Source: Gammaproteobacteria bacterium
Lineage (GTDB): Bacteria; Pseudomonadota; Gammaproteobacteria; Eutrophobiales; Eutrophobiaceae
Assembly: GCA_030835405.1 (NCBI GenBank)
Contig: JAURPG010000059.1
Coordinates: 1-64,000, forward strand
Reading direction: 5' to 3'
Length of the DNA stretch: 64,000 nt
Each line of letters begins with the position of its first letter. Position 1 is the first letter of the stretch. The translations under genes and the position numbers were made by a program. Positions 1,425-49,595 of this stretch are shown piece after piece. The notes under the pieces are model-generated. The model was not told the origin of the DNA, made no database searches, and saw only the letters and a list, made by a program, of their open reading frames with translations.

Positions 1425-1718
1425 TCACTTTGTTGAAAAATTATCTGCCAGATAATCGATGATGTCCTGCATGTCCTCGGGCTTCACCGGTGCGCCCCTG
1501 GCGACCATTTCATATACGTAAAACTCCCAGTCATCAGCAGACATTTCGTTAGATGGACTGAAGACGTTATCAAGACCATGGCAGGCAGTGCAGGCATAGA
1601 TGACCTTGTCGCGGTGTTCACCATCCGGCATGCCCTGAGCCTGGGATTGGCCATAAAAACCGAAAAGTGTGATTAATAGTAATAAGTATTTGAGAATTCC
1701 TGGATTAGAAATTTTCAT
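1425..1718 (-). CDS. Small periplasmic c-type cytochrome
   Basis: A 97-residue protein with an N-terminal signal peptide (about residues 1-27, ending in Q-S-Q-A-Q) and one heme-binding C-T-A-C-H motif (C43, C46, H47). The C-terminal half is predicted helical and has Met residues (M72, M83) that could serve as distal heme ligand. Size and motif fit a class I monoheme cytochrome c that carries electrons in the periplasm. The ATG at 1718 has a perfect AGGAGG just upstream. It lies 37 nt before the Tat-exported TPP enzyme and downstream of the SurA-like gene, so an electron-carrier role for a periplasmic oxidation in this operon is plausible but inferred. Confidence 0.85.
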   Translation of the reverse strand: MKISNPGILKYLLLLITLFGFYGQSQAQGMPDGEHRDKVIYACTACHGLDNVFSPSNEMSADDWEFYVYEMVARGAPVKPEDMQDIIDYLADNFSTK

Positions 1719-1833: not shown

Positions 1834-2457
1834 TTAGTAGCGCCGCGATAATGGGCTTCGTAGCCGTGCGGCAAAGGTTTCGATCCCGCTTTTCTGGTAT
1901 TGTTCAAGAATAAAATCCTTGAAACTCATTGAATTTTCATCGAGTTTCAGCTCTTTTTTCAGTTGAGCTATCAGGGAAGTAATCCTGATTTTGTCAGCTA
2001 TAAAATTATGCAGGAGTTGCTCATCTTCAATTCCCAGTCTTGCGAGATTTCGCCTGTTATATTCAGTAAAACCAAGGTCTTTCATAAGCCCGTTTAATCC
2101 TGTTATCAACTGTTCATTGGTATAGCTAATTCCCCTTTGTTCTGCCATATCCAGCAATACGATTTCATGCGCCCTTTTCTCAAGAAATTGATACTGAATG
2201 GTCATGATTTGTTGCTGGTCTTTTATGGGTACCCCATTTTGTACCGCATCAATAACCATCTGCAGTTCAAACTCCAGTTCAAACTGACGGCGGGTAAGTT
2301 CCGTATCACCATGGCGGATTACGACAGGGTTTTCGGGGGGGGAGGATTGAGGATAGGCAGGGTTGGTTGAAAAGGATAGTACCAATGAAGATAAAACTAC
2401 CAAGTAGTTACACTTTTTAATAATTAATTTAGATATCGAAAATAATTTATTAGTCAT
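1834..2457 (-). CDS. SurA N-domain-like periplasmic protein without PPIase domain
   Basis: A 207-residue protein with a signal peptide (hydrophobic stretch about residues 18-36) followed by a helical region with the arrangement of SurA/PrsA-type N-terminal chaperone domains: a short V-V-I-R-H-G-D-T-E-L-T-R-R-Q-F-E start, then helices that include Q-R-G-I-S-Y-T-N-E-Q. It ends without any parvulin (rotamase) domain; SurA itself is about twice as long. The likely role is folding or assembly of exported proteins. It sits in the same direction as the split amidohydrolase genes, 198 nt below the last one, so dedicated help in assembling those periplasmic halves is an attractive inference. The ribosome binding site is weak. 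Confidence 0.6.
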   Translation of the reverse strand: MTNKLFSISKLIIKKCNYLVVLSSLVLSFSTNPAYPQSSPPENPVVIRHGDTELTRRQFELEFELQMVIDAVQNGVPIKDQQQIMTIQYQFLEKRAHEIVLLDMAEQRGISYTNEQLITGLNGLMKDLGFTEYNRRNLARLGIEDEQLLHNFIADKIRITSLIAQLKKELKLDENSMSFKDFILEQYQKSGIETFAARLRSPLSRRY

Positions 2458-2655: not shown

Positions 2656-4005
2656 CTATCTTCTAACAGGATTATAGTCCGGGTCTTTGAAGACCACCTC
2701 ATCGGCCTGGACCGTGAGGGCAATTTTATTATCGTGGATCTCCCTGTCAGCCCCTGACAGAAACGGTTTGTCAGTCACAATAAAATCTGCGAACTTGCCT
2801 ACTTCGAGACTGCCGACTTTGGATTCAGCATAGAGAAATTCTGCTGACCGGTAGGTAAAAAGCTTAAGTGCTACCACTCTATCCACGCTTTCTTCCGGGG
2901 TGAACATTTCTCCCTGATGCTCTCCACGTAATAGTGTCCTGTTGACAAATATATCCATGTCCATGAAATAGGTGGGCTCGTGGCTTTCCCCCACCACATT
3001 GACACCGTTATCGATCAGTGTCCGAATGGGGCCGAGGAAATTAAAACATGCCTCTACATAATTTTGCCGACAGTTGTCCGGTTCTATCTCCAGAGATCTA
3101 CCCAGGGCAATGGGAATGAAGAGGTTGTATTTCAGCGCCGCTTCCATCACATCATCAACGGCACCCACCATGGTGCCATGGGCAAACCCATGCCGTGAGT
3201 TCCGCACAAAGTCCAGATTCATAAACTCTGGCTTCATGGCCATGGCCTCTTCCAGTTTCTGGACAAAGATCCTGACCGCATGGCTACCTACAGCATGGAC
3301 ACCGGCAAACCGCCAGCCGGAGCGGATACCACGTACCAGTGCCTGTACGGTAGGGGCATTAAAGTCGGGACAGATTTCAAGTATCTCTTTCACCTGTGAC
3401 TCTTCAACTCCCGGCTTGACAGCCAGGTCGTCTCCCATGCAACCCCGGTTTGGTGCGTCCCAATCCCCTTCGGCGCTCATGCCATGCAACCAGAACCAGG
3501 GGTTGACCTCTATGGTCTCCCACATGGCACCACGGTGTTCATAAAAGCCGGCTGCAGCCGATGAAGGAATAGGCTGTCGTGCCAGGTCCCAGCTGAATGC
3601 AAACCGAAGTGGCAGACGACCTTCTGTACGAAGCATGTAATTGTAAGCAGTTATCTGTTGATTGGTATTTAACCGGGAACCGAAGGTGGTCATGCCCTTG
3701 GGGTGATATTCTTTTTCCACCAGCATTTTGAATCCATCCCCATACTGCATGGGATTGGGTTGTTCCCTGAGCAACTGGCCAAGATGGGCCCGTAACGGGC
3801 TTTGGGTAATCAGTCCCCGTTCTCCAGAGTTTTCCATACCCCTGGCCTGATTGTTCACAGACTCCACCAGGTCCGGCCACATCTCCAGCACCTTGTCCAT
3901 GGCAAACTGATTAAATAGTATGGCCCGATGAGCGGCCTGTGAAGCGGGAATACTGACAGTGAACAGAAGTATTAGAACGAAGATATTTAGAACAGTTGTT
4001 TTCAT
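2656..4005 (-). CDS. Split amidohydrolase, secreted C-terminal half 4
   Basis: 449 residues: signal peptide (1-24, ending A-S-Q-A), then a segment matching only the C-terminal two thirds of YtcJ-type amidohydrolases. The mature start (A-H-R-A-I-L-F-N) aligns with S-H-R-N-I-L-L-N near residue 300 of the fused enzyme at 47212-49404. Present are the later metal/active-site histidines (H237 in G-V-H-A-V-G; H276 in G-F-A-H-G) and the C-terminal S-L-E-V-G-K-x-A-D-F strand of the beta-sandwich. The N-terminal HxH strand is absent. The beta-barrel G-S-D motif appears as G-E. The start at 4005 is preferred because GGGGAAG lies just upstream; a longer frame to 4044 has no ribosome site. It is the last of four tandem paralogs. 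Activity probably needs the N-half encoded at 8418-9173 (inference). Confidence 0.85.
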   Translation of the reverse strand: MKTTVLNIFVLILLFTVSIPASQAAHRAILFNQFAMDKVLEMWPDLVESVNNQARGMENSGERGLITQSPLRAHLGQLLREQPNPMQYGDGFKMLVEKEYHPKGMTTFGSRLNTNQQITAYNYMLRTEGRLPLRFAFSWDLARQPIPSSAAAGFYEHRGAMWETIEVNPWFWLHGMSAEGDWDAPNRGCMGDDLAVKPGVEESQVKEILEICPDFNAPTVQALVRGIRSGWRFAGVHAVGSHAVRIFVQKLEEAMAMKPEFMNLDFVRNSRHGFAHGTMVGAVDDVMEAALKYNLFIPIALGRSLEIEPDNCRQNYVEACFNFLGPIRTLIDNGVNVVGESHEPTYFMDMDIFVNRTLLRGEHQGEMFTPEESVDRVVALKLFTYRSAEFLYAESKVGSLEVGKFADFIVTDKPFLSGADREIHDNKIALTVQADEVVFKDPDYNPVRR

Positions 4006-4059
4006 TTCACTTCCCCGGTATTCCTTAATATAAATGTTCCACACTAACAGCCTGATTGA

Positions 4060-5469
4060 TTACCTTGTGCTGACCACTGGCTGATAATCAGGGTCCTGGT
4101 AACGGATATCATCTGCGGTAATAGTCAACACCACCTTGTTGTCTCGGATTTCTGTATCAGGTCCGGATAGATATGGTTTGTCAGTGACAATAAAATCAGC
4201 ATACTTGCCAACTTCCAGTGTCCCTACTTTCGATTCAGCATATAAAAATTCAGCAGAGCGTCTGGTGAAAAGTTTAAGGGCAACCACCCGGTCTACGCCT
4301 TCTTCCGGCAAGTAGACAATACCATCACCATATTTTTCCATGGGCATTCGATTTTCATCTGTCCCCTCTGATATCTCGCGATTCACATGAACGTCCCAGA
4401 TATCAAAGTAGGTCTCAGGCGTGGCAGTACCAATCAGGCCTTCACCCACCACATTCACGCCGGTATCAATCAATGTTTTTATAGGTGCAAGAAATTTCCA
4501 GCCAGGTTCACCATAGTTCTGCATGATGTTCTGGGGTTCAATGGCCAGGGATCGACGTACATTGATGGGCAGATAAAGATTATATTTCACCATACTTTCC
4601 ACCACATCCGGTACCGCCCCGGTGAGGGTCCCATGGGCAAATCCATGGCGGGAATTGCGGACATAATCCAGTGTCAACATCTTCGGATTGGCGGCCATGA
4701 ACTCTTCCAGCTTTTGAACAAAAATACGGATCGCATGGCTACCTACAGCATGGACGCCGGCAAACCGCCAGCCGGAACGTACTCCGCGCATCAAGGACTG
4801 AACTGCCGCCTCGTCAAAGGATGGACAGATTTCAATGATCTCCTTGACCTCTGTAACATCAACCCCGGGTTTTGCGGGCAGGTCATCGCCCATACAACCC
4901 CGGTTTGGCGCGTCCCACTCCCCTTCACTACTCATGCCGTGTAACCATAACCATGGATTTTTCTCAATGGTATTCCAAAGCACACCGCTGTATTCATACA
5001 GTCCGGCAGATGCGGCAGAAGAAATAGCCTGTCTGGCAAGGTCATTACTATAGGCAAGGCGTAGCGGTAGCCGACCATCGCGTCTTAACAGGTAGTAATA
5101 GGCAGTGATTTGTTCGGCGGTATTTAAACGGGTAGCAAAGGTGGAGATCCCCGATGGGGCATAGTGTTCTTCCACCAGTTTGATAAAGCCATCTCCGTAT
5201 TGCTCAGGTGTAGGTTGTTCGCGTAATAACTGGCCAAGATGTTCCCGCAATGGGCTGGTCATAATTAGCCCCCTGCTGCCCGGGTCATCAGCGCCCCTGG
5301 CCTGGTTGTTTGTGGTCTCCACGAAATCCGGCCACATTTCCAGTACCCGATCATAGGCATTCTGGTTAAACAACATGGCACGATGTGCGGCATTGACGCC
5401 CCCACTGACCAACAAGATTGCAAACATGAGTATACAAATAATAATCTGCGTCGGTCTCACTCCAGCCAT
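4060..5469 (-). CDS. Split amidohydrolase, secreted C-terminal half 3
   Basis: 469 residues, closely similar over its whole length to the neighbouring C-halves. A signal peptide (about residues 1-27, ending G-V-N-A) is followed by A-H-R-A-M-L-F-N-Q-N, the E-M-W-P-D segment, the D-A-P-N-R-G-C motif, G-V-H-A-V-G-S-H-A, R-H-G-F-A-H-G and the C-terminal E-V-G-K-Y-A-D-F-I-V strand. Compared with copy 4 it has an insertion of about 20 residues after the V-V-G-E motif, shared with copies 1 and 2. There is no HxH. The ATG at 5469 has GAGGT upstream. It lies 54 nt above copy 4 and 67 nt below copy 2 with no terminator visible between them, so the genes are probably cotranscribed. Confidence 0.85.
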   Translation of the reverse strand: MAGVRPTQIIICILMFAILLVSGGVNAAHRAMLFNQNAYDRVLEMWPDFVETTNNQARGADDPGSRGLIMTSPLREHLGQLLREQPTPEQYGDGFIKLVEEHYAPSGISTFATRLNTAEQITAYYYLLRRDGRLPLRLAYSNDLARQAISSAASAGLYEYSGVLWNTIEKNPWLWLHGMSSEGEWDAPNRGCMGDDLPAKPGVDVTEVKEIIEICPSFDEAAVQSLMRGVRSGWRFAGVHAVGSHAIRIFVQKLEEFMAANPKMLTLDYVRNSRHGFAHGTLTGAVPDVVESMVKYNLYLPINVRRSLAIEPQNIMQNYGEPGWKFLAPIKTLIDTGVNVVGEGLIGTATPETYFDIWDVHVNREISEGTDENRMPMEKYGDGIVYLPEEGVDRVVALKLFTRRSAEFLYAESKVGTLEVGKYADFIVTDKPYLSGPDTEIRDNKVVLTITADDIRYQDPDYQPVVSTR

Positions 5470-5536
5470 TCGTTTTACCTCACTTTAAGAATTATTCTAC
5501 CCTCACAGTTACCCAGGGTTATTTTCAACTGTTTGC

Positions 5537-6940
5537 TTACTTTCTTGTCGGTGCATACTCAGGATCCAGGTATACGGTTTCATCAGCCTGCACCGTCATG
5601 ACTATCTTGTTATCCCTGATCTCGATATCCGGACCTGACAGATACGGCCTGTCAGACACGATAAAATCTGCATATTTACCCACTTCAAGGCTGCCGATCT
5701 TCTCTTCTGCATAAAGAAACTCTGAAGACCTGTGGGTAAACAACTTAAGGGCAACGACCCTGTCAACACCTTCATCGACGTTATAAACAGTACCTTCTTC
5801 ACCATGTTCTGGCGGTCCATAATCATGTCCTGCGGCATCAGCAATCTCACGGTTAACATAGACATCCAGCCTGTTGAAGTAGGTCTCAGGATTGGTCCTC
5901 ACCACTTCCGCTTCACCAACAATCTTGACTCCAAGGTCGAGCATGGTCTTAACCGGGGCAAGAAAGTCAAAGCAGGCCTCCACATAATTCTGGCGGCAAT
6001 TATCAGGCTCAATGGACAATGAACGCGCTGCATCAATAGGAATATACAGATTATATTTTTTCATGGATTCAACTATGTCAGGCACCGGACCGATCATAGT
6101 GCCATGGGCAAAACCATAACGGGCTTCACGTACGAAATCCATGGTCAGAAACTTGGGTCTGGCCGCCATATGCTCCTCTAACTTCTGCACGAAGAGACGG
6201 ATGGCATGGGTGCCCACACCGTGTACTCCAACCCAACGCCAGCCCGAACGTACACCGCGCATTAGTGCCTGAACCGATGGGGCACTGAAGTCCGGGCAGA
6301 TCTCCAGCACTTCTTTGACCTGTCTGACTTCAACTCCAGGTTTAACAGCCAGGTCACCCTGCATGCAACCACGGTTGGGGGCGTCCCAGTCACCTTCCGA
6401 TGTCATGCCACTTAACCATAACCAGGGGTTGTACTCTATCGTCTCCCATAAGGCCCCGCGGTGTTCATAGAACCCGGCGGCGGCAGCTTCCGGTATGGCC
6501 TGCCTAGCCAGGTCCAGTGCCATGGCATGGCGGATGGGTAATTTTTTTTCTTTACGTAGCAGGTAATGATAGGCACTTACCTGGGCATTGGTATTGACCC
6601 GGGAACCAAACGTGGTACGTCCGGCAGGGTGAAAATTTTCTGCAATGAGTTTTTTAAATCCATCACCGTATTGTTCCGGCGTTGGCTGTTCCCGCAGTAA
6701 CTGGTTAAGGTGTGCCCGTAGTGGGGCCTGGTTAATGGCAGCTCGTTCTCCGGCATTTTCCATGCCCCTAGCCTGATTGTTTACGGATTCCACGTAATCG
6801 GGCCACATCTCCAGGATCTTGTCCATGGCAAAATTATTAAAAAGCAATACACGATGGGCGGCCTGTACCGGTACACATAAAACCATCATGGCAACAATTA
6901 CCATTATGGTTCTAGAGGTAAAATGTTTTAATGTTTGCAT
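5537..6940 (-). CDS. Split amidohydrolase, secreted C-terminal half 2
   Basis: 467 residues with a signal peptide (hydrophobic core about residues 11-24, ending V-Q-A) and then A-H-R-V-L-L-F-N-N-F. It shares the D-A-P-N-R-G-C, G-V-H-G-V-G-T-H-A and G-F-A-H-G motifs. The first His of the R-H-G-F-A-H-G group is Tyr here, which suggests that only the second His is essential. The N-terminal metal-binding strand is missing, as in the other copies. ATG at 6940 is chosen because AGG is spaced 8 nt upstream; GTG at 6949 is an alternative. It lies between copies 1 and 3 in the same orientation. Function as the barrel-completing subunit for the N-half is inferred. Confidence 0.85.
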   Translation of the reverse strand: MQTLKHFTSRTIMVIVAMMVLCVPVQAAHRVLLFNNFAMDKILEMWPDYVESVNNQARGMENAGERAAINQAPLRAHLNQLLREQPTPEQYGDGFKKLIAENFHPAGRTTFGSRVNTNAQVSAYHYLLRKEKKLPIRHAMALDLARQAIPEAAAAGFYEHRGALWETIEYNPWLWLSGMTSEGDWDAPNRGCMQGDLAVKPGVEVRQVKEVLEICPDFSAPSVQALMRGVRSGWRWVGVHGVGTHAIRLFVQKLEEHMAARPKFLTMDFVREARYGFAHGTMIGPVPDIVESMKKYNLYIPIDAARSLSIEPDNCRQNYVEACFDFLAPVKTMLDLGVKIVGEAEVVRTNPETYFNRLDVYVNREIADAAGHDYGPPEHGEEGTVYNVDEGVDRVVALKLFTHRSSEFLYAEEKIGSLEVGKYADFIVSDRPYLSGPDIEIRDNKIVMTVQADETVYLDPEYAPTRK

Positions 6941-7002
6941 TCTTTGCACCTGCTAATTATTTAGTTAATTTCTCACCATTCACGACTGGCATGTTCTACT
7001 TA

Positions 7003-8406
7003 TTATTGTGTCGTTGGATTATATTCAGGATCTTTGTAGCGAACTTCATTTGCCAGCACGGTCATGATGGTCTTGTTGTCCCTAATCTCACGGTCAGGCC
7101 CGGACAAATAAGGTTTATCGACAACAACAAAGTCCGCATATTTACCCACTTCAAGACTGCCGATTTTTGACTCGGCATAGAGAAACTCTGCAGAACGATA
7201 GGTAAAAAGTTTCAGTGCTACAACACGATCAACCCCTTCTTCAGGATTGAAGACCTCACCCTCACCATAGCGCTCTGGTGCCGTGGCTCCCGTACCCGCA
7301 CCGATTTCCATTTCCCTGTTCACATAGACATCAAAAATATCAAAATAGGTCTCAGGGTCTGGTCTGCCAATTTCAAACTCACCAACCACTTTTACCCCCT
7401 GGTCCAGCAAGGTCTTCACAGGGCCAATAAATTTAAAACAGGCTTCCACATAATTCTGCCGGCAATTGTCCGGTTCAATGGCAAGTGCCCTGCGCAGGTT
7501 GATGGGTAGATACAGGTTATATTTAAGGATGCCTTCCACCACGTCCGGTACCGCGCCAGTCATGGTACCGTGGGCAAACCCATGGCGGGACTCCCTGACA
7601 AAATCCAGGGTAAGCACCGAGGGGTTGGCCTGCATATGACCTTCAAGTTTCTCAATAAACAACCTCAGCCCGTGACTGCCAACACCATGGACACCGGCAT
7701 AACGCCAGCCGGCACGGATACCACGCATCAGCGCCTGGACGGTCGGCGCACTGAAATCGGGACAGATTTCTATCACATCTTTGACCTGGGTTTCATCTAC
7801 ACCCGGTTTGACGGGGAGATCATCCTGCAGACATCCTCGATTGGGGGCATCCCAGTCACCTTCACTGGCCATCCCATGCAACCATAACCAGGGATTGGCA
7901 TCAACTGTTGACCACATGGCGCCACTGTATTCATTGAGTCCTGAGGCGGCGGCCGATGGTATTGCCTGCCTGGCCAGGTCATAGGCATAGGCATGCCTGA
8001 CAGGTAATTTCCTGTCTTTGCGGTATATATAGTGATAGGCCGTGATCTGTTCGTTGGTATTGACCCTGGATGCAAACGTGGTCATTCCAGCCTGGCTATA
8101 GTACTCATCTACCAGTTTCTTGAACCCATCACCATATTGTGAAGGTGCGGGTTGCTCCCTGAGTAACTGTCCCAGGTGGGAACGTAACGGGCTCTGGGTA
8201 ATGAGTCCACGTGCCCCGGCATCTTCCATGCCCCGGGCCTGGTTATTGACCGACTCCTCAAAGTCCGGCCACATCTCCAAAACCTTGTCCATGGCAAACT
8301 GGTTAAACAGTATGGCCCTGTGACTGGCATGGGCAGTTCCAGACAACACAAACAAACCAAGGAGAATTAAATACAAAATTGTATTTCTCAAATTCAGTAT
8401 ATTCAT
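7003..8406 (-). CDS. Split amidohydrolase, secreted C-terminal half 1
   Basis: 467 residues: signal peptide (1-26, ending G-T-A-H-A), then S-H-R-A-I-L-F-N-Q-F, the tandem W-P-D-F-E-E-S-V-N-N-Q region, D-A-P-N-R-G-C, G-V-H-G-V-G-S-H-G, R-H-G-F-A-H-G and the C-terminal S-L-E-V-G-K-Y-A-D-F strand. The start at 8406 has AGGAGAT upstream. Only 11 nt separate it from the stop of the N-half gene, the tightest spacing in the array, which makes it the most likely ancestral partner. The gene junction corresponds to an interior point of the fused enzyme at 47212-49404; about 80 residues of the fused protein, after its N-domain, are present in neither half. Confidence 0.87.
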   Translation of the reverse strand: MNILNLRNTILYLILLGLFVLSGTAHASHRAILFNQFAMDKVLEMWPDFEESVNNQARGMEDAGARGLITQSPLRSHLGQLLREQPAPSQYGDGFKKLVDEYYSQAGMTTFASRVNTNEQITAYHYIYRKDRKLPVRHAYAYDLARQAIPSAAASGLNEYSGAMWSTVDANPWLWLHGMASEGDWDAPNRGCLQDDLPVKPGVDETQVKDVIEICPDFSAPTVQALMRGIRAGWRYAGVHGVGSHGLRLFIEKLEGHMQANPSVLTLDFVRESRHGFAHGTMTGAVPDVVEGILKYNLYLPINLRRALAIEPDNCRQNYVEACFKFIGPVKTLLDQGVKVVGEFEIGRPDPETYFDIFDVYVNREMEIGAGTGATAPERYGEGEVFNPEEGVDRVVALKLFTYRSAEFLYAESKIGSLEVGKYADFVVVDKPYLSGPDREIRDNKTIMTVLANEVRYKDPEYNPTTQ

Positions 8407-8417
8407 CAGTTGATCTC

Positions 8418-9173
8418 CTATGGAAGCTCTATGACCTTCTCATGCACGGGCTGACCATCAGCTCCCACGGTAATGTGGTACCAGACATTCTTTTCCGGGG
8501 CATCCAGGATGGATGTCGCACTGGAGAGTACAAATGGATAATTGGGGACGATTTCTGAGAGGTCTTCCTTGGAGATCTGCACATCCGTCAAACGAGGCGC
8601 ACTCATCAGTGTTGATACATCAGCAGGCGTAGCAAACCCCAATTCCGGGTTATGGACAATAGAGATATTGATCCACTCATCCGGGGCAGGTTCTGCAGTG
8701 TTCAATAATACTTCCATTGCTTCAGCCACCTTGGCCATGGTCTCATCAGATGAGGCACCTACATCAAGATTCAGGGCATAACCTTCAGGTGTATTTCTTA
8801 AACTGTGTATCTCCCTGGCATAAGCCTCTGAAGCACCCATTGGATGAACATGACTCTCAACGATACCAGGTAGTACCGTTTTACCCAGCAGGTCTACAAC
8901 CTCTGTATCTGGCCCGGCTAAACGTAACATATCTTCATTTGAACCAATGCCGATGATGATTTCATCTCGAACCGCCATGGCCTCGGCAATGGTGCCCGGA
9001 TTGGAGTTCATCTCATGATCGTCCAGGGTGACTATGGTTGCATTGGTGTATACCGTATCTGCAAACTGCAGGACTGCGGAAGGATAATCCTGGGCCTGAA
9101 CTGAGGCATATAGTCCAGATATCAGGAACAGGAATATCCCGGTGATTTTATGATTGCGTGTGAAATTGTTCAT
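8418..9173 (-). CDS. Split amidohydrolase, secreted N-terminal half with HxH metal motif
   Basis: 251 residues. After a signal peptide (1-27, ending S-V-Q-A) it matches the first 220 or so residues of the fused amidohydrolase at 47212-49404: the D-T-V-Y-T-N-A-T-I-V-T-L strand, A-M-A-V-R-D, G-P-D-T-E-V-V-D, then T-V-L-P-G-I-V-E-S-H-V-H-P with the metal-binding H108 and H110. It stops before the barrel is complete, so it cannot be a full amidohydrolase on its own. The ATG at 9173 has GGAGA upstream. It is the first gene of the operon, and four C-half paralogs follow at once. Known for the family: the first HxH strand and the later His and Asp ligands must meet in one barrel. Inferred: the halves assemble in the periplasm. 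Confidence 0.88.
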   Translation of the reverse strand: MNNFTRNHKITGIFLFLISGLYASVQAQDYPSAVLQFADTVYTNATIVTLDDHEMNSNPGTIAEAMAVRDEIIIGIGSNEDMLRLAGPDTEVVDLLGKTVLPGIVESHVHPMGASEAYAREIHSLRNTPEGYALNLDVGASSDETMAKVAEAMEVLLNTAEPAPDEWINISIVHNPELGFATPADVSTLMSAPRLTDVQISKEDLSEIVPNYPFVLSSATSILDAPEKNVWYHITVGADGQPVHEKVIELP

Positions 9174-9443: not shown

Positions 9444-11564
9444 TTAAAAATTCCCGCTGACTGTCAGGGTAATCCTGCGGCCATTAAATCTGGTCCGAAA
9501 TTCCTGTGACTCAACTGCGGATAAGCCCCTGAGCCCGGTATAAAAAGTACGATAACGATTTTGTTTAAACCTCAATAAATTATCGCCAACGATTGAGACC
9601 TTAAATCCTTGCCATCGGGTTGTCTCGATAAAGGCGTCTATTGCAAACCCCTCATTATGAACGTCAAACTCATTCACCTTGAACAGCTGGCGATGGTCCC
9701 TTTCCGCCACGGACCAGCCCCAGGCGACCTTTGCTGCTTCCAGATCCTGTCGAAATTTTAATCTGACAAGATACCGGATATTGTTATTCCCCCCCAACAG
9801 GGAGCGATAGGCATTTACCCCGCCCTGTCCTGATAACACACGACTCTGCCCGGTAACTGGGTCAATAACAGTTGAGTCCTGCCACAACAAGCTCAGATCA
9901 AATTTTGCGCCGGACAGCCCCAACCATTCTAGTGGAATGGTGCCTTCCAGTTCCACGCCCCAACGCCTGCCACTACCTATATTTCCTGGTGCTTCATCCG
10001 TATCGGATAACGGCAAAAGGTCAAGTACATTGGATATCCAGTGATGAAAGGCGATGACCTTAATCACGCTCTCCTGGCCAAAACGCCTTTCATGACTGAG
10101 TTCAGCCACCCAGGTGGCATCAGGCCTTAAATTTGGATTTCCCAATGACAACTCATTGTCTTCAAATACCGTAGTACTGATAAAATCGTCAAAATCCAGC
10201 TGGGCAATCTCTCGTGCCACCCTCGCCTTGGTCTGACCACCATCACCTGAAGAATAGGTCAAGATGGTATGAGGCTTGATAAAGAAAAAATTCCGCTCCT
10301 GTTCAAAATCTCCCGTCTGGGAAATATTTGAAACTTCAGCCCCCAGTCCATAGTCAAGTTCCAGTTGACCGGTGCCCCAGGTGTCTTTGATCAAAAAGTC
10401 TGCCCGAAGCTCTTCCACCAGGGAATTTGAACCGGGGATGTCCACCAACACCGCTCCCATACCCCTGTCTATGGTCTGTTCCAGCGTACCATCTACGGAA
10501 TTATAGGCGCCCTCGATATTGAACTGAATGTTGTGATCTTCAATTCCTGTCCAATCCAGCTCAATTCGGGCAATGGTCTCAGTAGCAACATCGGTAATAT
10601 CGGCTACCCTGGCTAACGTTTGCACACCATCTTCATCGGTGAGAATTCTGGATGTAATTCGCGGTGTGCTATCAAGAAAGAACTGAAAGATTGCTTTCCC
10701 TACCAGAGATGTTGAAAGATTCCTTAATGCATCAGCGCCGATCTCAAATTGCTTGATGGTCATATCATTACCAACGAACTCATGTCGTGGGACTCCACCC
10801 GTCAAAAAAGGTGAAAATTCTGAATCTTCTCTTCTATCCCGGGTTTCATAATGAGTACGAGTATTAAACTGGGTAAGTGTTTGGCCAATAAGGGATGATG
10901 CATTGATTGTAGCAGTCAAATCAATCCCGGTTGCTATCTGCTCAACAGAGCTCTCTTCAAATGGGGTACCATTTCCACCAATAAAGCTATCAGTTCCAGT
11001 TTCCCCGTTGGCTTCGCGTTCTATCCTAACCCCGACGTTATAATCGATCTCATTCCAACGATGAGACAATGAGGTATCGACTCCGGGCTTCAACGGTCCA
11101 TCAGAGTGTTGCCGAACATAGGCGTCCCAGCGTACCACGGGAGGAAGGTCTGCCCTGAGAATAACATTGGCCACCTGTGACTGACCCTGTAAATCTATCC
11201 CCCTGACCTGGCCGCGAATCAGTTCTATCCTGGCCACCTGGTTGGCGGCAATTCTCGCCAGTAGTGCGGAGGGGGTATCTTGTTTTACACTGGGATAAAC
11301 ATCATTAATTAAAATATTACCAACTGCTGCAATAAAACCCCGGTCCGAAGTTCCGTCATCAATTTGAAATCCCGGTAATTGTCTGAGCATGTCCAGCGCA
11401 GTTGCCGGCTGATAACGACGAAAAAATGACGCAGGATATTCAACTAGTAATTCATCCGTTAGGTCAGTATTTGTAAGGCCAGGTCCTGCTGCCCCCTGGG
11501 CCACACATACCACTGACGCTATCAGGCAATAAAACCAGATAACCGGAATTATAAATCGTTGCAT
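9444..11564 (-). CDS. TonB-dependent outer-membrane receptor-like protein
   Basis: 706 residues from the ATG at 11564. A signal peptide (to about residue 24, ending V-A-Q-G-A-A) is followed by a plug-like domain (A-L-D-M-L-R-Q-L-P-G-F-Q-I-D, then V-A-R-I-E-L-I-R-G-Q-V-R-G-I-D) and a long stretch of alternating beta strands ending in V-S-G-N-F, with the terminal aromatic typical of outer-membrane barrels. A classical TonB box is not obvious near the N-terminus. The frame extends upstream to 11657 and overlaps sodC, but that extension spoils the signal peptide. Substrate is unknown; its position above the secreted amidohydrolase array suggests it admits the polymer or conjugate those proteins act on (inference). 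Confidence 0.8.
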   Translation of the reverse strand: MQRFIIPVIWFYCLIASVVCVAQGAAGPGLTNTDLTDELLVEYPASFFRRYQPATALDMLRQLPGFQIDDGTSDRGFIAAVGNILINDVYPSVKQDTPSALLARIAANQVARIELIRGQVRGIDLQGQSQVANVILRADLPPVVRWDAYVRQHSDGPLKPGVDTSLSHRWNEIDYNVGVRIEREANGETGTDSFIGGNGTPFEESSVEQIATGIDLTATINASSLIGQTLTQFNTRTHYETRDRREDSEFSPFLTGGVPRHEFVGNDMTIKQFEIGADALRNLSTSLVGKAIFQFFLDSTPRITSRILTDEDGVQTLARVADITDVATETIARIELDWTGIEDHNIQFNIEGAYNSVDGTLEQTIDRGMGAVLVDIPGSNSLVEELRADFLIKDTWGTGQLELDYGLGAEVSNISQTGDFEQERNFFFIKPHTILTYSSGDGGQTKARVAREIAQLDFDDFISTTVFEDNELSLGNPNLRPDATWVAELSHERRFGQESVIKVIAFHHWISNVLDLLPLSDTDEAPGNIGSGRRWGVELEGTIPLEWLGLSGAKFDLSLLWQDSTVIDPVTGQSRVLSGQGGVNAYRSLLGGNNNIRYLVRLKFRQDLEAAKVAWGWSVAERDHRQLFKVNEFDVHNEGFAIDAFIETTRWQGFKVSIVGDNLLRFKQNRYRTFYTGLRGLSAVESQEFRTRFNGRRITLTVSGNF

Positions 11565-11638
11565 AAATTTGTTCTTTGGATAAGCAAAGGACTGATTGAT
11601 GAAACACCAATCAGCCCTGGGCTTGAATAATGATTCAA

Positions 11639-12148
11639 TTACCTGATGACACCACAATAAGCCCTGCCACCTCCGGGGCTGGAGCCGTAATTATCTTTGC
11701 CCGCATGGACCATTAATGAACGTCCGTCGAGATCAGATAGAGACAGGTGGGGGGCCAGTGAGGGTATGGTTGCGGTACCATCCTGTTCGACAATCAGTAC
11801 CGGGAGGTCGCCCAGATGTCCATCACCATAAGGACCTTTATGAACCCCTTTACCTTCAGGATCATAGTGGGAACCTGCACCCATTCCTGGCGCGCCGTCT
11901 GGGCCTGCGGCACAACTTGGATTTTCATGGACATGCAAACCAATTGGACCCGGCTCCAGGCCGCTTAGATCCGGCTGAATCAACAAGCCATGATTACTGT
12001 CACTAAAACTGACCATACCAATAGATTCTGCCGTCCCCTGGGAGGTCAACCGGTGTACCGTGGCAGACTTACTGGTTTCCTGTGCCACTAATCCGCTGCA
12101 ACCTGTTGCAAGACCCAGACTTATGATAATGAAGTAAATATTTCGCAT
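11639..12148 (-). CDS. sodC: Cu/Zn superoxide dismutase, lipoprotein
   Basis: 169 residues matching bacterial SodC. An N-terminal lipobox (L-A-T-G-C, Cys17) predicts a membrane-anchored periplasmic enzyme. Copper and zinc ligands are in place: G-L-H-V-H-E, the G-S-H-Y-D-P and K-G-V-H-K-G-P-Y-G-D-G-H-L-G-D-L-P block, and L-M-V-H-A-G near the end. The disulfide Cys pair (P-S-C and Y-C-G-V-I) is also present. The C-terminal glycine loop is a little shorter than in E. coli SodC. The enzyme removes superoxide in the periplasm. The ATG at 12148 has AGGAGAT upstream. The stop is 75 nt above the TonB receptor start, so the two may be cotranscribed. Confidence 0.93.
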   Translation of the reverse strand: MRNIYFIIISLGLATGCSGLVAQETSKSATVHRLTSQGTAESIGMVSFSDSNHGLLIQPDLSGLEPGPIGLHVHENPSCAAGPDGAPGMGAGSHYDPEGKGVHKGPYGDGHLGDLPVLIVEQDGTATIPSLAPHLSLSDLDGRSLMVHAGKDNYGSSPGGGRAYCGVIR

Positions 12149-12308: not shown

Positions 12309-13331
12309 TTATTTACCCCTAGCTTTTAGCGCCGCATCCAGACGCGGATAAACCCGCCTGGTATTTCCTTCAAAAACCTTTCTCTTGTCAGCGTCAGAAA
12401 TATCCAAGGCATCAATATAACGCTTGGTATCATCAAAATAATGTCCAGTTTCAGGATCGATTCCCTTTACTGCGCCAAACATTTCTGATGCGAACAATAT
12501 ATTGTCAATATCAATAACCTCAAATAAGCAATCAATGCCAGGTTGATGATAGACACAGGTATCAAAATACACATTCTTCATGACATGTTCTTTCAGCAGC
12601 GGTTTTTTTAACATATCCGCCAGTCCTCGATACCGCCCCCAATGATAGGGGACCGCGCCACCACCATGGGGTATGACTAACCTGAGTTCTGGAAAATCCT
12701 TAAACAGATCTCCCTGGATAAGCTGCATAAATACTGTTGTATCACCATTCATATAATGCGCACCCGTTGGATGAAAATTGGGATTGCAGGATCCTGATAC
12801 ATGGATCATGGCAGGCACATCCAACTCAATCATTTTTTCATAAAACGGATACCATGACTTGTCAGTCATTGGCATCCCGGTCCACATGCCACCGGAGGCG
12901 TCGGGATTCAGATTACAGCCTACGAAACCCAGTTCGTTGATGCAGCGCTCCAATTCTTCAATAGAATTACTGATGGAAGCACCTGGTGACTGGGGCAACT
13001 GACAAACGCCGATAAAATTATCTGGGTACATGGTAGTAACCCGGTGGATCAAGTCATTACATATCCGGGTCCACGTTTTGGACATCTTCTCATCACCAAT
13101 ATGATGCCCCATTGCCACGGCACGGGGTGAAAAAATGGTCATGTCTGCCCCGCGTTCATGTAATACTTTCAGCTGGTTACCTTCAATACTTTCCCGTATC
13201 TCATCATCGGAAATTTCCGCGAATATCGCTTCGGGTTTTGAAGGGTCTTCAAAATTTGCGATTTGTGCATTCCTGTAATCCATTAGCTGGGCAGGTGCAG
13301 TTGTATAGTGTCCATGACAATCGATAATCAT
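12309..13331 (-). CDS. ligJ: 4-oxalomesaconate hydratase (amidohydrolase_2 family)
   Basis: 340 residues with strong likeness to LigJ of Sphingobium SYK-6. The N-terminal D-C-H-G-H supplies H6 and H8, H177 lies in M-I-H-V-S-G and E283 in A-S-E-M-F-G, which correspond to the zinc ligands described for LigJ. Other family stretches are S-P-R-A-V-A-M-G-H-H-I-G and I-P-H-G-G-G-A-V-P-Y-H-W-G-R. The enzyme hydrates 4-oxalomesaconate to 4-carboxy-4-hydroxy-2-oxoadipate in the cytoplasm, in the 4,5-cleavage route from protocatechuate or gallate. There is no signal peptide. The ATG at 13331 has AGGAAG upstream. The LigK gene ends 24 nt before it on the same strand, so the two steps are encoded in order. 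Ring-cleavage and LigC/LigI genes are not in the window. Confidence 0.9.
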   Translation of the reverse strand: MIIDCHGHYTTAPAQLMDYRNAQIANFEDPSKPEAIFAEISDDEIRESIEGNQLKVLHERGADMTIFSPRAVAMGHHIGDEKMSKTWTRICNDLIHRVTTMYPDNFIGVCQLPQSPGASISNSIEELERCINELGFVGCNLNPDASGGMWTGMPMTDKSWYPFYEKMIELDVPAMIHVSGSCNPNFHPTGAHYMNGDTTVFMQLIQGDLFKDFPELRLVIPHGGGAVPYHWGRYRGLADMLKKPLLKEHVMKNVYFDTCVYHQPGIDCLFEVIDIDNILFASEMFGAVKGIDPETGHYFDDTKRYIDALDISDADKRKVFEGNTRRVYPRLDAALKARGK

Positions 13332-13355: not shown

Positions 13356-14036
13356 TTAGTCTCTATCTGGATACTTCAGGCCTTTTTCGGCCAAGGCAGG
13401 GCGCATGTTATTCATGTCCAGACCCAGTTCACCGGCGGCATAGCGTTTCCTGATTCCGGCTTCCTTTTCTTCTCTGGCTTTGGATTTCTTCAATACATCT
13501 TCCGCTTCATCCACCGTGACCACAACAACACCATCGTCATCGGCAATAATAGCATCGCCAGGGTGGATGGTCTGCCCTGCACAAACTACCGGGATATTGA
13601 CACTTCCCAGCGTCTCTTTAACCGTGCCCTGTGCCGAGATACATTTTGACCAAACCGGAAATCCCATCTCTTTTAAATCTGCAATGTCCCTGACCCCGGC
13701 ATCGATTACCAGGGCCTTGACTCCTTTCGACATCAGCAAGGTCGCCAGCAGATCACCAAAATAACCTGCATCGGAGAGAGAGGTAGGGGCAACAACCAGT
13801 ATGTCTCCCGGTTGGCAAACCTCGGCCGCCACATGGATCATCCAGTTGTCGCATGGCGGGACGGATACAGTAACTGCGGTTCCTGATATCCGGGTTCCCG
13901 GGTAAATGGGCCGCATGTAGGGGGCCATCAGACCCTTCCTGCCCTGGGCCTCGTGGATAGTGGCAACACCATAGTTACCCAGATCTTCGATAATATTTTT
14001 TTCTACGCGCGAATATTTTTCAATCACAACAGCCAT
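13356..14036 (-). CDS. ligK: 4-carboxy-4-hydroxy-2-oxoadipate aldolase
   Basis: 226 residues of the RraA-like class II aldolase family, close to LigK/GalC/ProA. Seen are V-A-T-I-H-E-A-Q, P-P-C-D-N-W-M-I-H-V-A, V-V-A-P-T-S, G-Y-F-G-D-L-L-A, the metal/substrate motif G-V-R-D (R116, D117), G-F-P-V-W-S and G-T-V-K-E-T-L-G-S-V-N-I-P-V. Known LigK enzymes split 4-carboxy-4-hydroxy-2-oxoadipate into pyruvate and oxaloacetate and also decarboxylate oxaloacetate. The start at 14036 is preferred over an upstream ATG at 14063 because AGGGAGAT precedes it. The gene lies just before ligJ, 24 nt apart. A 10-bp inverted repeat lies immediately upstream. Confidence 0.9.
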   Translation of the reverse strand: MAVVIEKYSRVEKNIIEDLGNYGVATIHEAQGRKGLMAPYMRPIYPGTRISGTAVTVSVPPCDNWMIHVAAEVCQPGDILVVAPTSLSDAGYFGDLLATLLMSKGVKALVIDAGVRDIADLKEMGFPVWSKCISAQGTVKETLGSVNIPVVCAGQTIHPGDAIIADDDGVVVVTVDEAEDVLKKSKAREEKEAGIRKRYAAGELGLDMNNMRPALAEKGLKYPDRD

Positions 14037-14062
14037 TAATATCTCCCTGATAGATATAAACA

Positions 14063-14100
14063 CAGGGTCAGATAACTATCTAAAGTTTGTTCTGACCCTG
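14063..14100. promoter_or_regulatory. 10-bp perfect inverted repeat upstream of ligK
   Basis: Arms CAGGGTCAGA and TCTGACCCTG flank an 18-nt loop, between the alcohol dehydrogenase stop and the ligK ribosome site. The position fits an attenuator, an RNA-processing hairpin or an operator. There is no T-run on either side, so simple intrinsic termination is unlikely. Confidence 0.5.
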
Positions 14101-18596: not shown

Positions 18597-19916
18597 TTAG
18601 ACAGAGGTATGGGGCTCGTCTTGCTTGACCCTTACCGCCTCCTTCGCACCGTCAAGAAACTTTTGGTCTTTCGGAAGCAGAACCGAGACCGACCTCACCT
18701 TATGGTGTTCAGGATCTACCCCTTCAGGTAACTCACCATAATTCTCAAGCGCCTCAATAGCATTAAATATCTTGCGGCGCGCCATCATTATTCCCTTATC
18801 AGTAGGGGCCAGCATTTCATAGGTCCGGTCACAGATTCCACCCCAGGCAACACGCTCACCAGTCTCAGGATCAATGCTCGCCATACTTTCCTGTAGGGAT
18901 GAATCCTGAATGGCAATCCCTTCAATACCACTATAGGTTAAACCCTGCTTTTGTGCCTCGCGATCCATTAAGTAGTCGTTTGCCCTGTTTGCCTTAGGAG
19001 TATATGTCCCGGGAATATAGGCGCAATGTATACCAGCACCTTGCTCCATGGCTTCCCGTTCTTGATCTGTCAACGGCCGGTTAGGCTTATAGTCAAAACT
19101 CCATGCCCAGCAATTTTTATCATCAATGGGGACCCAGAAGTGTCCGTGCACAGGATAGTCACCCCTGGGTGGAACCATGGTGAAAAACGGCATCAACCAG
19201 GGCGTTATCCGCCAGTAGTGCTGTTCGTCTTCAGCATTTCTTCGGGCAGCTATCATTAATCCGCCTTCATAATCTTCAACTTCAAATTTTGGTTTCAGGT
19301 CAGCCATGTTGTACTTGTTACCCTTTGCACCTTTAAACAAAGGATCACTTTCCAGATTATGACCGTGAAGGAAAGACACATGGCTGGAGTCTATCCCTCC
19401 CTCCAGGGCCTGTAACCAGTTACTTTCCTGATGACGCTTGGAGATAAACCGTTGATCAGCAGGCATGTTACAGACTTCATATTCCGGTAACGGCGGCTGG
19501 TTTTCAGGGTCACCCATGTAGGTCCATAATATCCCACCCTTCTCTACCAGAGGATATGATTTCAGCTTGATGTTGGTACAAAATTCAGGGGATTCTGAAG
19601 GCACATCAATACACTTCCCGTTAACATCAAACTTCCAACCATGATAGGGACAGCGAAGCCCACTATCCTCGTTTCTTCCAAACCATAATGAGACACAACG
19701 ATGAGCACAGAATTCATCTATTAACCCCAGGCGACCTTCCGTGTCCCTGAATGCCACCATATATTCGGACAGGAGCTGGACCCTGACCGGGGGGCAATCC
19801 GCCTCAGGGAGTTCCTCTGCAAGAAGCGCAGGTATCCAGTAGCATCTAAAAAGTTTACCCATTGGAGTATTGGGGCCTGTTTTACATAACTGGTCATTCT
19901 TCTCTTTTGAAAGCAT
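18597..19916 (-). CDS. Rieske-type aromatic-ring oxygenase, phthalate 4,5-dioxygenase-like
   Basis: 439 residues. The Rieske [2Fe-2S] ligands are C70-x-H72 and C89-x2-H92, in F-C-A-H-R-C-V-S-L and R-C-P-Y-H-G-W-K-F-D. The mononuclear iron site follows the D-x2-H-x4-H pattern (D176, H179, H184 in D-S-S-H-V-S-F-L-H). Length and the single-component layout fit the phthalate dioxygenase/vanillate demethylase group, which needs a separate reductase; none is in the window. The cytoplasmic reaction would be hydroxylation or O-demethylation of an aromatic acid. The ATG at 19916 has GAGGAG upstream. A near-paralog with a nonsense codon lies at 57511-58836. Confidence 0.9.
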   Translation of the reverse strand: MLSKEKNDQLCKTGPNTPMGKLFRCYWIPALLAEELPEADCPPVRVQLLSEYMVAFRDTEGRLGLIDEFCAHRCVSLWFGRNEDSGLRCPYHGWKFDVNGKCIDVPSESPEFCTNIKLKSYPLVEKGGILWTYMGDPENQPPLPEYEVCNMPADQRFISKRHQESNWLQALEGGIDSSHVSFLHGHNLESDPLFKGAKGNKYNMADLKPKFEVEDYEGGLMIAARRNAEDEQHYWRITPWLMPFFTMVPPRGDYPVHGHFWVPIDDKNCWAWSFDYKPNRPLTDQEREAMEQGAGIHCAYIPGTYTPKANRANDYLMDREAQKQGLTYSGIEGIAIQDSSLQESMASIDPETGERVAWGGICDRTYEMLAPTDKGIMMARRKIFNAIEALENYGELPEGVDPEHHKVRSVSVLLPKDQKFLDGAKEAVRVKQDEPHTSV

Positions 19917-22913: not shown

Positions 22914-23140
22914 TTGCGTCCTCCAAAAAGTCGAATAGCTGTTGTTATTCTTGATAAAGGCTTAATTATACAACCAAATAACGCCAAGATTCTCCCAATG
23001 TTACTGTATGAAAGAATTTAGGAATAATTACAAAAGGGTTTATTCAGTTTGTATAATAATCATATCCTGTTGTTATAAAAACCGGAAATACTAGGGTAGC
23101 ATACCCAAATATTGGGGCACTTCCAGGAGAGAGATTGAAA

Positions 23141-23818
23141 ATGACATACAGACAGACTCAACGGCAAAATATCCTTGCCGCATTATTCCTGTTAGCGATC
23201 AGCCTGAATAGTCACGCGCATGAATATTCAAATCTCAATGAGGTAATGATTGATCGGGCCAATGACTCAATTGCAAACAGTGTCTTGCAGGTACAGTCGT
23301 TTCTCACGGAAATTTTTCGCAAGACCTATGTTCCTGATGATTGGCCTGACAGGAAACTGACGATCTTGCGCAATGACCTCATGCATCAGAAAGAAGAGGC
23401 CAATATGAGCCTGGATTATTTTGCTGCCAATGGTGTCAATATTCAGACCCAGGAAGTACTGTGGGATAACCCCCTGGCGGGAAGATCAATGGCCGCAAAC
23501 CAGGCAGTAGAAACAGCATTCGGTTTCCTGAAGTATATAATTACCCTGGAAAATCAGGATATCTTTATCAAGGAGATCTATTCCGGTGGCCAGTCAGCTC
23601 ATATGTATAACCTCCTGACGGCTTACAGGGAAAAGATGGCACTGTATAAGGCAATCTTTGATAAGGTCCCGGGCCCGAACCAGGTAGGAGAATCTGTTAC
23701 TGACGAGACAGCAGTCGCCGAAGTCAGGGAAACAACAACTGTCCCTTACCTGGTGGGACTATTACTATTTTGTATTGTGGTGGTTGGATTGATATTAAAA
23801 AAACAATCGCTTATTTAA
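23141..23818 (+). CDS. Secreted membrane-anchored protein of unknown function
   Basis: 225 residues with no recognised domain. There is an N-terminal signal peptide (about residues 1-27, ending N-S-H-A), a mostly helical periplasmic region (residues 28-195) and a single C-terminal membrane helix (Y-L-V-G-L-L-L-F-C-I) ending with K-K-Q-S-L-I. It should sit in the inner membrane with its body in the periplasm. ATG 23141 follows AGGAGAG; a TTG six bases upstream is less likely. It converges with the mxaL-like gene 50 nt away, but no functional tie is visible. Confidence 0.65.
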   Translation: MTYRQTQRQNILAALFLLAISLNSHAHEYSNLNEVMIDRANDSIANSVLQVQSFLTEIFRKTYVPDDWPDRKLTILRNDLMHQKEEANMSLDYFAANGVNIQTQEVLWDNPLAGRSMAANQAVETAFGFLKYIITLENQDIFIKEIYSGGQSAHMYNLLTAYREKMALYKAIFDKVPGPNQVGESVTDETAVAEVRETTTVPYLVGLLLFCIVVVGLILKKQSLI

Positions 23819-31633: not shown

Positions 31634-31676
31634 AAATTTACCGCACATAGCAAACAGATACTCAGAGGACCCATCA

Positions 31677-47211: not shown

Positions 47212-49404
47212 TTAGTCTTTTATTTCAGGCTGATACTCTGGATCGATATACATGACCATATCACCAACCACCGTCATGATGGCCTTGTTCAAAGGGATCT
47301 CCATGGTAGGCACTGAAAAGTAGTCCTTATCAAGCACCGTAAAATCGGCCCATTTCCCGGGTTCAAGGCTACCTGCCAGGTCCTCCGCATATAGCCATTC
47401 AGCCGCCTTACTGGTAAACAAGCGCAGTGCCGTGGCCCGGCTGACGGCCTCTTCGGGCATGACGATCTCACCGGCTTCCAGGGGTTCACTTTCATGACGA
47501 ACCCTGCGGTTTACAAACATATCAAAGGCATTGAAATAGATATCAGGGCGTGGGCGGCTATATTCCGTCTCACCTACAATATTCACACCTGATTCAATCA
47601 GGGTCTTGGTGGGAGACAGAAATTCCAGACCTTCCGGTCCGTAGCGTCTAACCTGTTTTAATGATGCTGCAACATCATTAGGTTGTAATGGGACATAGAA
47701 ATTGTAGTCCTTCATGATCTCCATAACATCAGGAATCTTCCCTACCGCCCCACCATGGGCAAAACCAATACGCATCTCACGGATATCATCCATGGACATC
47801 CTACCTTCCACCCTGGCCTGTTCTATCCAGGCCATGTGTTTACGGAAGGCCTCGCTGCCGAAGGAATGCAGACTGAATGGACGCCAACCCGCCGCCATGG
47901 CCGGGATCAGCACATTGGTAATACGATAGGCTTGATCGTCCCAGCAGAGTTCCCGGTCTTTCAGCATCTCAGGACCGGGCAGGTCTGCACCAAAGCAGGC
48001 TACCTGGCGGGAGTCGCCAACACCACCATCGGTAATACCCGTGGGCCAGAACCAGGGATCAACATGTGGGGAACCCCATTGTGCGCCCAGCTCTGCCACA
48101 ATCAATTTATTGTTGGGGTACATGACCGGGCTTCTGAACATCTCGTAACCGAATCCCCAGCGGATCGGCAGGCGATGGTCTTCCCGGAGAATATCAAAAA
48201 CAGCGGTCATGGCAGTACCGTATTCCACACTGGATGAAATCATTGTGAGTCCGGCGGTGTTGTATAACTTAAGGGCCTCTTTCATCAGGGTCTTGGTGAA
48301 GTCTCGGGGCATTCGAGGTGGATTGATCACCCGCTCCCAGGCACCACTCTCCTGAAACACACCGCCAACAATACCTCGGTCACCTTCACGTCCGAGCTTG
48401 CTTAATCCTGTCATATCGTTAGCGGCCTGGATAAAACCCGGCCAAAGGTCTGTTGTTGCCTCAAGCCCTTTACGGTTTAACAGGATATTACGATGGCTGC
48501 AGTGCTGCATATGGTGGGGAAACATCTCCGCATAACCGCAACCCTGGTCAATATGGGCATGAAATGAATCTTCCCTGTCCCGCTTTGCATTTTCTGAAAA
48601 GAGTTGTTTAAAGGGGTTGTCGTTACCAGCAATGTTTGAGGCCTCTTCAACATGGTACAAGGCCTGGGGAACGCTCAGGGGCTCCATGGATGCCTTACCA
48701 TCTGCGGCAAGGTCAACCCTCACCACCAGGCCTGGCTGAACGATGGCACTGGGTCCTGAGCCACTGCTTAATGTGGCCGGGTTGTCCGGGATCACATTAC
48801 TAAGATCATCCATGGTAAATACGCCATTATAAATGGCATTGGTCAAAGAACCGATGTCTGGATAAATGGTGTTTTCATTTTCTACCAGGCGGATGTGAAC
48901 CCATTCGCCCTGTTTAGGCGGATACTGGTTAAGAAACTCAGCTACGGCATCATAGGTATCTTCCGGGTTATCACTGGGCAAGAGGATGGCAGTATGCAGA
49001 CCTGGTGGTAAGGAGTAGGCATCACGTTCACCTTCATAGAGCCTGACTGCATTCATGGTGCTTTCCGGGTGAACATGTGTTTCGATGATCCCTGGGATAA
49101 CAGTCTTACCCTTTACATCGATTATCCTGGTGTCTGGACCTGCGAATTTGAGCATGTCCTGATTGGAACCCAGGGCAAGAATCTTTTCTTCGCGAATCGC
49201 GATGGCCTGGACAATACTGCCGGGATCTGAAGATAGCAGGTCCTTATTGTCCATGGTATAAATCGTACCGTTAATGACGATGGTGTCAGGATAGACCACC
49301 AGTTCACTTGGGACCGACAGGATATCCTGTGCATTAACGATTAAATGAGATAGAAACAAGGTAATAAACAATAACCCCGTCACTGTTTTTTTCAGGTTCA
49401 ACAT
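47212..49404 (-). CDS. Secreted full-length amidohydrolase_3 (YtcJ-like), fused form
   Basis: 730 residues from ATG 49404 (GAGGGAG upstream). Signal peptide to about residue 25 (V-N-A-Q). The N-part holds T-V-I-P-G-I-I-E-T-H110-V-H112-P, the first metal-binding strand. The later part carries S-H-R-N-I-L-L-N, S-L-H-S-F-G-S and R-I-G-F-A-H-G, then S-L-E-P-G-K-W-A-D-F. It corresponds to the N-half at 8418 joined to any of the C-halves at 2656-8406, plus about 80 linking residues missing from both. The G-S-D motif is G-E-T here too. Known relatives hydrolyse amide or ester-like bonds with one or two metals. It is alone on its strand, divergent from the bicupin operon. Confidence 0.88.
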   Translation of the reverse strand: MLNLKKTVTGLLFITLFLSHLIVNAQDILSVPSELVVYPDTIVINGTIYTMDNKDLLSSDPGSIVQAIAIREEKILALGSNQDMLKFAGPDTRIIDVKGKTVIPGIIETHVHPESTMNAVRLYEGERDAYSLPPGLHTAILLPSDNPEDTYDAVAEFLNQYPPKQGEWVHIRLVENENTIYPDIGSLTNAIYNGVFTMDDLSNVIPDNPATLSSGSGPSAIVQPGLVVRVDLAADGKASMEPLSVPQALYHVEEASNIAGNDNPFKQLFSENAKRDREDSFHAHIDQGCGYAEMFPHHMQHCSHRNILLNRKGLEATTDLWPGFIQAANDMTGLSKLGREGDRGIVGGVFQESGAWERVINPPRMPRDFTKTLMKEALKLYNTAGLTMISSSVEYGTAMTAVFDILREDHRLPIRWGFGYEMFRSPVMYPNNKLIVAELGAQWGSPHVDPWFWPTGITDGGVGDSRQVACFGADLPGPEMLKDRELCWDDQAYRITNVLIPAMAAGWRPFSLHSFGSEAFRKHMAWIEQARVEGRMSMDDIREMRIGFAHGGAVGKIPDVMEIMKDYNFYVPLQPNDVAASLKQVRRYGPEGLEFLSPTKTLIESGVNIVGETEYSRPRPDIYFNAFDMFVNRRVRHESEPLEAGEIVMPEEAVSRATALRLFTSKAAEWLYAEDLAGSLEPGKWADFTVLDKDYFSVPTMEIPLNKAIMTVVGDMVMYIDPEYQPEIKD

Positions 49405-49595
49405 TTGCAGATACTCCCTCTGTTTAGAAATTACATTCATTCAAGCTAGACTCGTTGAATTCCGTTCTTTTACCGTACTGGATATATTATTATTACCTTT
49501 TTATTAGTCAAAAATGAGTAAAAATCTGGTAATATACTTATCTTCCAAAATTATCATACAACAACATTATTAGAATAATAAGCAGGAGTATCAAT

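Follow-up and report, generated by a model that had tools for sequence, protein, structure and literature searches.

Metal-dependent hydrolases of the Amidohydro_3/YtcJ-like type, such as the solved protein 3icj in the Protein Data Bank (PDB), consist of a single chain in which an HxH motif follows an N-terminal sandwich and is succeeded by two later histidines, a late acidic residue, and a C-terminal sandwich segment. The same elements were found at the locus described here, which lies in a 64,000-nucleotide stretch (the window) of contig JAURPG010000059.1 from a gammaproteobacterium of the family Eutrophobiaceae (GenBank assembly GCA_030835405.1). Here, however, they are divided between two kinds of chains that are predicted to be exported separately, namely, an N-terminal part (N-half), which carries about 140 extra residues after the HxH, and a C-terminal part (C-half), for which there are four genes in tandem (C1 to C4).

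Urease and formylmethanofuran dehydrogenase are multi-chain enzymes of the amidohydrolase superfamily, in which the catalytic barrel lies within one chain (the urease alpha subunit and the dehydrogenase subunit A). A profile of the N-half weakly matches the HxH region of both subunits, but the barrel is unsplit in these enzymes, whereas the split described here passes through the barrel-encoding region. In split M16 metallopeptidases, the metal site and other parts of the active site are placed on separate chains, and fused relatives exist; these enzymes have an unrelated fold, and each of their chains is a whole clamshell half, unlike the halves at this locus. Dependence of an amidohydrolase-type enzyme on a partner chain, as proposed for the pair studied here, is known from the dihydroorotase of Aquifex aeolicus, which is inactive alone and active once bound to aspartate transcarbamoylase (PMC3880350), although in that case the whole barrel resides in one chain and the partner enzyme is unrelated. 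In the laboratory, an active enzyme has also been obtained from two pieces of a barrel, such half-barrels having been made to study barrel evolution: separately made (beta/alpha)4 half-barrels regain activity on co-expression or co-refolding (PMC4591997, citing earlier work). The laboratory pieces are equal, whereas the split at this locus is natural and unequal, falls early in the barrel, and is accompanied by predicted signal peptides on both pieces. No natural split amidohydrolase was found in a literature search that had most subscription journals outside its reach.

The two halves match complementary parts of a single-chain paralogue

The five open reading frames (ORFs) reported in a first-pass annotation of the window were all present at their positions on the minus strand (Table 1). 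The four C genes, of 462 to 470 codons each, stand directly after the N-half on the same strand, with 11 nucleotides (nt) between the stop codon of the N-half and the start of C1, and a Shine-Dalgarno-like sequence precedes both of the probable internal starts that are given in Table 1 for C2 and C4. A fused single-chain paralogue in the window was used as the comparison protein. Its presence had been recognized in the annotation, but its ORF had been given as 47212-49404; position 49404 is an internal ATG.

Table 1. Features of the split amidohydrolase locus, the comparison protein, and neighbouring genes in the window (signal peptides and domain contents are predictions; a slash marks the predicted cleavage site)
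Feature	Position	Strand	Description
N-half	8418..9173	-	251 codons; signal peptide, N-terminal part of amidohydrolase sandwich, HxH (His108, His110), about 140 further residues
C-half 1 (C1)	7003..8406	-	Signal peptide end AHA/SHR; barrel remainder with His240, His279, Glu343; C-terminal sandwich
C-half 2 (C2)	5537..6949	-	Probable start ATG 6940; signal peptide end VQA/AHR
C-half 3 (C3)	4060..5469	-	Signal peptide end VNA/AHR
C-half 4 (C4)	2656..4044	-	Probable start ATG 4005; signal peptide end SQA/AHR; shortened loop after Glu343
Fused single-chain paralogue	47212..49440	-	742 amino acids; Amidohydro_3, E = 9e-34; aligns with both halves
SurA-N-like gene	1834..2457	-	Directly downstream of the C array; SurA_N_3, 19.4 bits, below the cut-off of 27.2; no PPIase domain in the window copy
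TonB-dependent receptor-like gene	9444..11657	-	Upstream; TonB_dep_Rec_b-barrel, E = 1e-7; an 81% identical relative precedes the N-half in genome G007
Amidohydro_2 protein	12309-13331
LigK	13356-14063		Above curated cut-off
Rieske oxygenase-like gene	18597-19916		With LigXa_C

The N-half aligned with residues 20 to 249 of the fused paralogue (33% identity, E = 7e-35), while C1, starting from its residue 26 just after the signal peptide, aligned with residues 313 to 741 (35% identity, E = 1e-76). C2, C3, and C4 are 67%, 66%, and 66% identical to C1, respectively. The view that N and C together cover the fused enzyme holds insofar as the two are complementary parts, but the stretch outside both amounts to about 63 residues, not the 80 that had been estimated. 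The N gene had also been thought to end right after the HxH strand; in fact, it continues for the additional residues listed in Table 1, which are homologous to the fused enzyme up to residue 249 or so. Against the Pfam family Amidohydro_3 (PF07969; gathering score, 29.7 bits), the C-halves scored 52 to 72 bits and the fused paralogue scored 118 bits, all above the cut-off (E = 5e-15, 8e-14, 7e-20, and 1.5e-15 for C1 to C4). The C-halves matched the family profile from position 137 or 256 to position 472; the match of C3 spans positions 137 to 468. Moreover, 3icj was matched at separate parts, 55 to 104 with the N profile and 453 to 502 with the C profile. Instead of the single polypeptide that characterizes Amidohydro_3, the locus has two ORFs with a signal-peptide-like start on each, and aligned fused enzymes carry a linker of different character at the place where the split C-halves have the signal-like segment.

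The split arrangement recurs throughout the genus

The window belongs to a genus of uncultured gammaproteobacteria, and each of the five genomes of this genus gave N-half matches (E <= 1e-20); 48 other genomes of the order gave none. The genus holds 14 split loci, including loci cut by contig ends; they are present in all five genomes and fall into three clades, A, B, and C, with clade A comprising the window locus and its relatives. The order of one N and four C genes is also found in genome G007 (locus L026, on a 2.18-Mb contig), in which N and C1 are 86% and 90% identical to those of the window by BLASTP, and genome G010 has the clade A locus as one N and one C (L027). Two more N-halves, 57% and 45% identical, are encoded in the window genome (G000). 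This 2.8-Mb genome was matched by the N-half at 31 places at E <= 0.001, indicative of a large amidohydrolase expansion.

In 14 of 14 loci, the partner half adjoins or its edge is visible at the contig end, always in the order N then C on the same strand. As judged by eye from the bases, the cut locus of G008 shows the opening codons of a C-half with a signal-peptide-like start, and the reading at the end of G010 contig C4 closes in a short tail resembling an N-half. The clade B C-half of G000 is cut off by the end of contig C126, and a matching C-terminal piece is located at the end of contig C79. Conserved adjacency of the gene pair in other genomes, which the annotation had put forward as a check, was thus found, with every half next to its partner or to an edge of it. 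No single ORF over both halves was seen at this locus in a homologous genome, and the split is independent of assembly.

Outside the genus, the split form was found in none of the sampled relatives. At E <= 1e-25, C1 had no match in 369 sampled genomes of the class except the window's own, and the fused protein had none in 398 sampled genomes of the phylum except its own genome. A looser profile search of the class, in which only part of the candidates of a genome were scored, gave partial matches, which covered at most the C-terminal 40% or so of the C-half and lay mostly in longer open frames, the shortest frames (126, 217, and 344 amino acids) being left unexamined. A plasmid search yielded only short weak matches.

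Each half carries its own predicted start and export signal

All split C-halves with an intact 5' end begin with a hydrophobic signal-like segment, and in all of them this segment can be seen to end where homology to the fused enzyme begins, apart from that of G008, which is cut at the contig end. A purine-rich, ribosome-binding-like sequence lies upstream of most split C-half starts. From the stop codon of N to the start codon of C, the gap ranges from 10 to 65 nt across loci, the value being 10 nt in L027 with the earlier ATG; for G010, G007c, and G009 (clade C), the automatic start choice took a late ATG, and the gaps computed there are overstated by the codons passed over. Separate export of the halves, as originally suggested, agrees with signal-peptide-like starts on both, with cleavage-like motifs, and with ribosome-binding-like sites at most C starts.

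Putative metal ligands are conserved in both halves, and all five genes are under purifying selection

Three residues of the N-half (His108, His110, and Pro111) and three of the C-half (His240, His279, and Glu343) are the same in at least 80% of the rows of every split and fused clade, and they are invariant in split-only alignments. The HxH context reads ESHVHP in clades A and B (ESHTHP in two members of B) and NNHHHP in clade C. If the fold and ligand roles of the family are carried over to the split proteins, the conserved His and Glu residues would be metal ligands as in other amidohydrolase families. The alignment, together with the conserved HxH in N and His/His/Glu in C, supports the earlier idea that the ligands are divided between complementary parts of one barrel enzyme; by homology, a C-half alone would have neither the HxH ligands nor the first strand of the barrel. 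Two cysteines (192 and 215 in full-length C1) are invariant in the split C-halves and possibly form a disulphide. Four further Amidohydro_3 proteins are encoded in the window (31557-33608, 38309-40153, 42022-43884, and 55623-57452), and their alignment rows show NDGDN or SDGDN in place of the HxH.

Comparison of G000 with G007 by the Nei-Gojobori method gave nonsynonymous divergence (dN) of 0.06 to 0.09 for N and each of the C genes, with a synonymous divergence (dS) that was either close to 2.5 or saturated. The dN/dS values, 0.03 for N, 0.02 for C1, 0.03 for C2, and 0.025 for C3 (C4 has a dN of 0.08 with dS saturated), are rough because of this saturation. N and each C are under strong purifying selection, and even such rough values clearly argue against relaxed selection. 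C1 to C4 are one-to-one orthologues between the two genomes, and therefore the fourfold set is older than their separation. Clades A and B form one group in both the N and the C trees. When the N and C regions are joined, the resulting tree groups all split rows, including clade C, but with a support of 80/93 it is not decisive for a single split, and the N and C trees taken separately fit either one or two events.

The four C paralogues differ mainly in a predicted active-site loop

At 40 positions, three or more different letters or gaps occur among the C paralogues and each paralogue is identical to its orthologue. Seventeen of these positions fall in residues 344 to 382 (hypergeometric P = 8e-10; 7 of 30 with gap positions left out, P = 5e-4), a segment that by homology would form the loop following the final strand of the barrel, on the face of the active site. 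Since the loop holds insertions and deletions, part of this effect may reflect ordinary loop tolerance, whereas simple drift is argued against by the high orthologue identity in the loop (0.95 and 0.89 per 20-column block, shared gaps being counted as matches). The loop differences fit different substrate ranges of C1 to C4, a notion that they support only indirectly, and in the window species and G007 one N chain may serve four C chains that differ in this respect.

A probable natural split of a barrel hydrolase and its alternatives

We conclude, with a probability of about 0.78, that the locus encodes a periplasmic metallohydrolase of the YtcJ/Amidohydro_3 type that is naturally split into two chains, which are exported separately and fold into one barrel. 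The N chain, of about 225 residues after signal cleavage, would supply the HxH metal ligands along with the strands of the N-terminal sandwich, while the C chain, of about 440 residues, would contribute what remains of the (beta/alpha)8 barrel, a further two His and the acidic residue, and the C-terminal sandwich strands. After export, the two would fold together in the periplasm, giving one active barrel. One N chain could serve four C chains whose main difference lies in the loop that follows Glu343, the presumed metal ligand, resulting in several substrate ranges. In a fuller version, a single exported chain that donates metal ligands would complete the active site of several interchangeable barrel chains, every one of them having a specificity loop of its own, and a SurA-like chaperone encoded next to them may be dedicated to the system; for this version we see the chances as evenly balanced.

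Several points weigh against the natural split, including the rough dN/dS values mentioned above. The N-half matches Amidohydro_3 only at profile positions 1 to 32 with 22.5 bits, under the cut-off, and signal peptides were judged by composition only. AlphaFold predictions, for which 10 to 13 aligned sequences were available, reached a mean predicted local distance difference test (pLDDT) score of 42 for the fused paralogue and 43 for C1, both of which are too low for use as structural models. In addition, the G007c N-half (L054, 8642-9286) has one in-frame TAA near the signal-peptide region and is otherwise conserved.

This stop codon and the draft state of the assembly (136 contigs) could be taken to mean that the split is a sequencing or assembly error, or that the halves are decaying fragments of an ordinary single-chain enzyme. 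The arrangement is nevertheless repeated in independent assemblies, including the one with the 2.18-Mb contig, and in 14 loci of three clades, a signal-peptide-like segment stands in place of the missing linker, and dN/dS is about 0.03, which leaves this explanation with next to no credibility. Assembly error or frameshift was ruled out by the independent genomes, the signal peptides, and selection. It is also very improbable that the N and C ORFs are joined in translation by frameshifting or readthrough, with the C signal sequence acting as an internal transmembrane helix. Several loci indeed have C starting only 10 to 11 nt after the stop codon of N, but gap lengths vary up to 65 nt and place C in differing frames relative to N (10 versus 11 nt), ribosome-binding-like sequences occur at most C starts, the signal segments close in cleavage-like motifs, and further stop codons precede C2 to C4.

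Of more weight, though still unlikely, is the possibility that the C-halves need no N to work, being either binding proteins or hydrolases of a homomeric or truncated kind, with N being a vestige or having a separate role. C is twice the size of N, bears the majority of catalytic residues, and is present in four copies against a single N. Yet the HxH is retained in N across all split clades, as are many other residues, and N evolves no faster than C; every C-half locus has an N-half adjacent or at the contig edge, and C alone is expected to miss a barrel strand and two ligands. Finally, the split enzyme may be real with C2 to C4 pairing mainly with N-halves of clade B and C loci rather than with the adjacent N, for which the two more N-halves of G000 would be available. 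Those N-halves adjoin their own C-halves of matching clade, however, and C2 to C4 and the adjacent N all belong to clade A, so that we consider such pairing improbable.

Genes adjoining the split loci

The gene directly downstream of the window's C array is SurA-N-like, and relatives directly follow a C-half in L051 (6382-6966), L052 (10372-11052), L054 (6247-7224), and L088 (3489-4499). In the two longest, those of L054 and L088, SurA_N scores above its cut-off and a PPIC domain is present; the others are without PPIC. Such a gene adjoins the C-halves in five of the six clade A loci with a covered downstream side. From this association, its product is possibly a dedicated periplasmic chaperone of the split enzyme; the link is no more than suggestive, since the family is also located near fused amidohydrolases (L094 and L095).

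The remaining neighbours in Table 1, together with tripartite tricarboxylate transporters, point to a role in taking up and degrading organic compounds that are aromatic or related to aromatics. A conserved secreted protein of about 240 amino acids follows all four clade C C-halves (L060, 8279-8992; L059, 7285-8025; L058, 5934-6770; L061, 5413-6144), likewise as an association only, and the three of these proteins that were tested had no Pfam match; homologues are encoded at 23060-23815 on the plus strand of the window and beside the G009 clade B pair. An asparaginase-like motif, IIATGGTIAN, was noticed by eye in ORFs near split or fused amidohydrolases (L092, 9336-10394; L094, 6849-7970; L057, 7248-7547). 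A small cytochrome c-like protein of the window (1425-1718, minus strand) gave a weak SorB match (34.9 bits versus a cut-off of 93).

Implications

Taken together, a barrel hydrolase has apparently been split in nature and has been under selection in three gene clades, and the same genomes encode fused relatives with which it can be compared. Provided that the pairing is correct, a shared metal-donating chain combined with several specificity chains would be an economical way of widening the periplasmic substrate range, and the pair would offer a ready scaffold for enzyme engineering.

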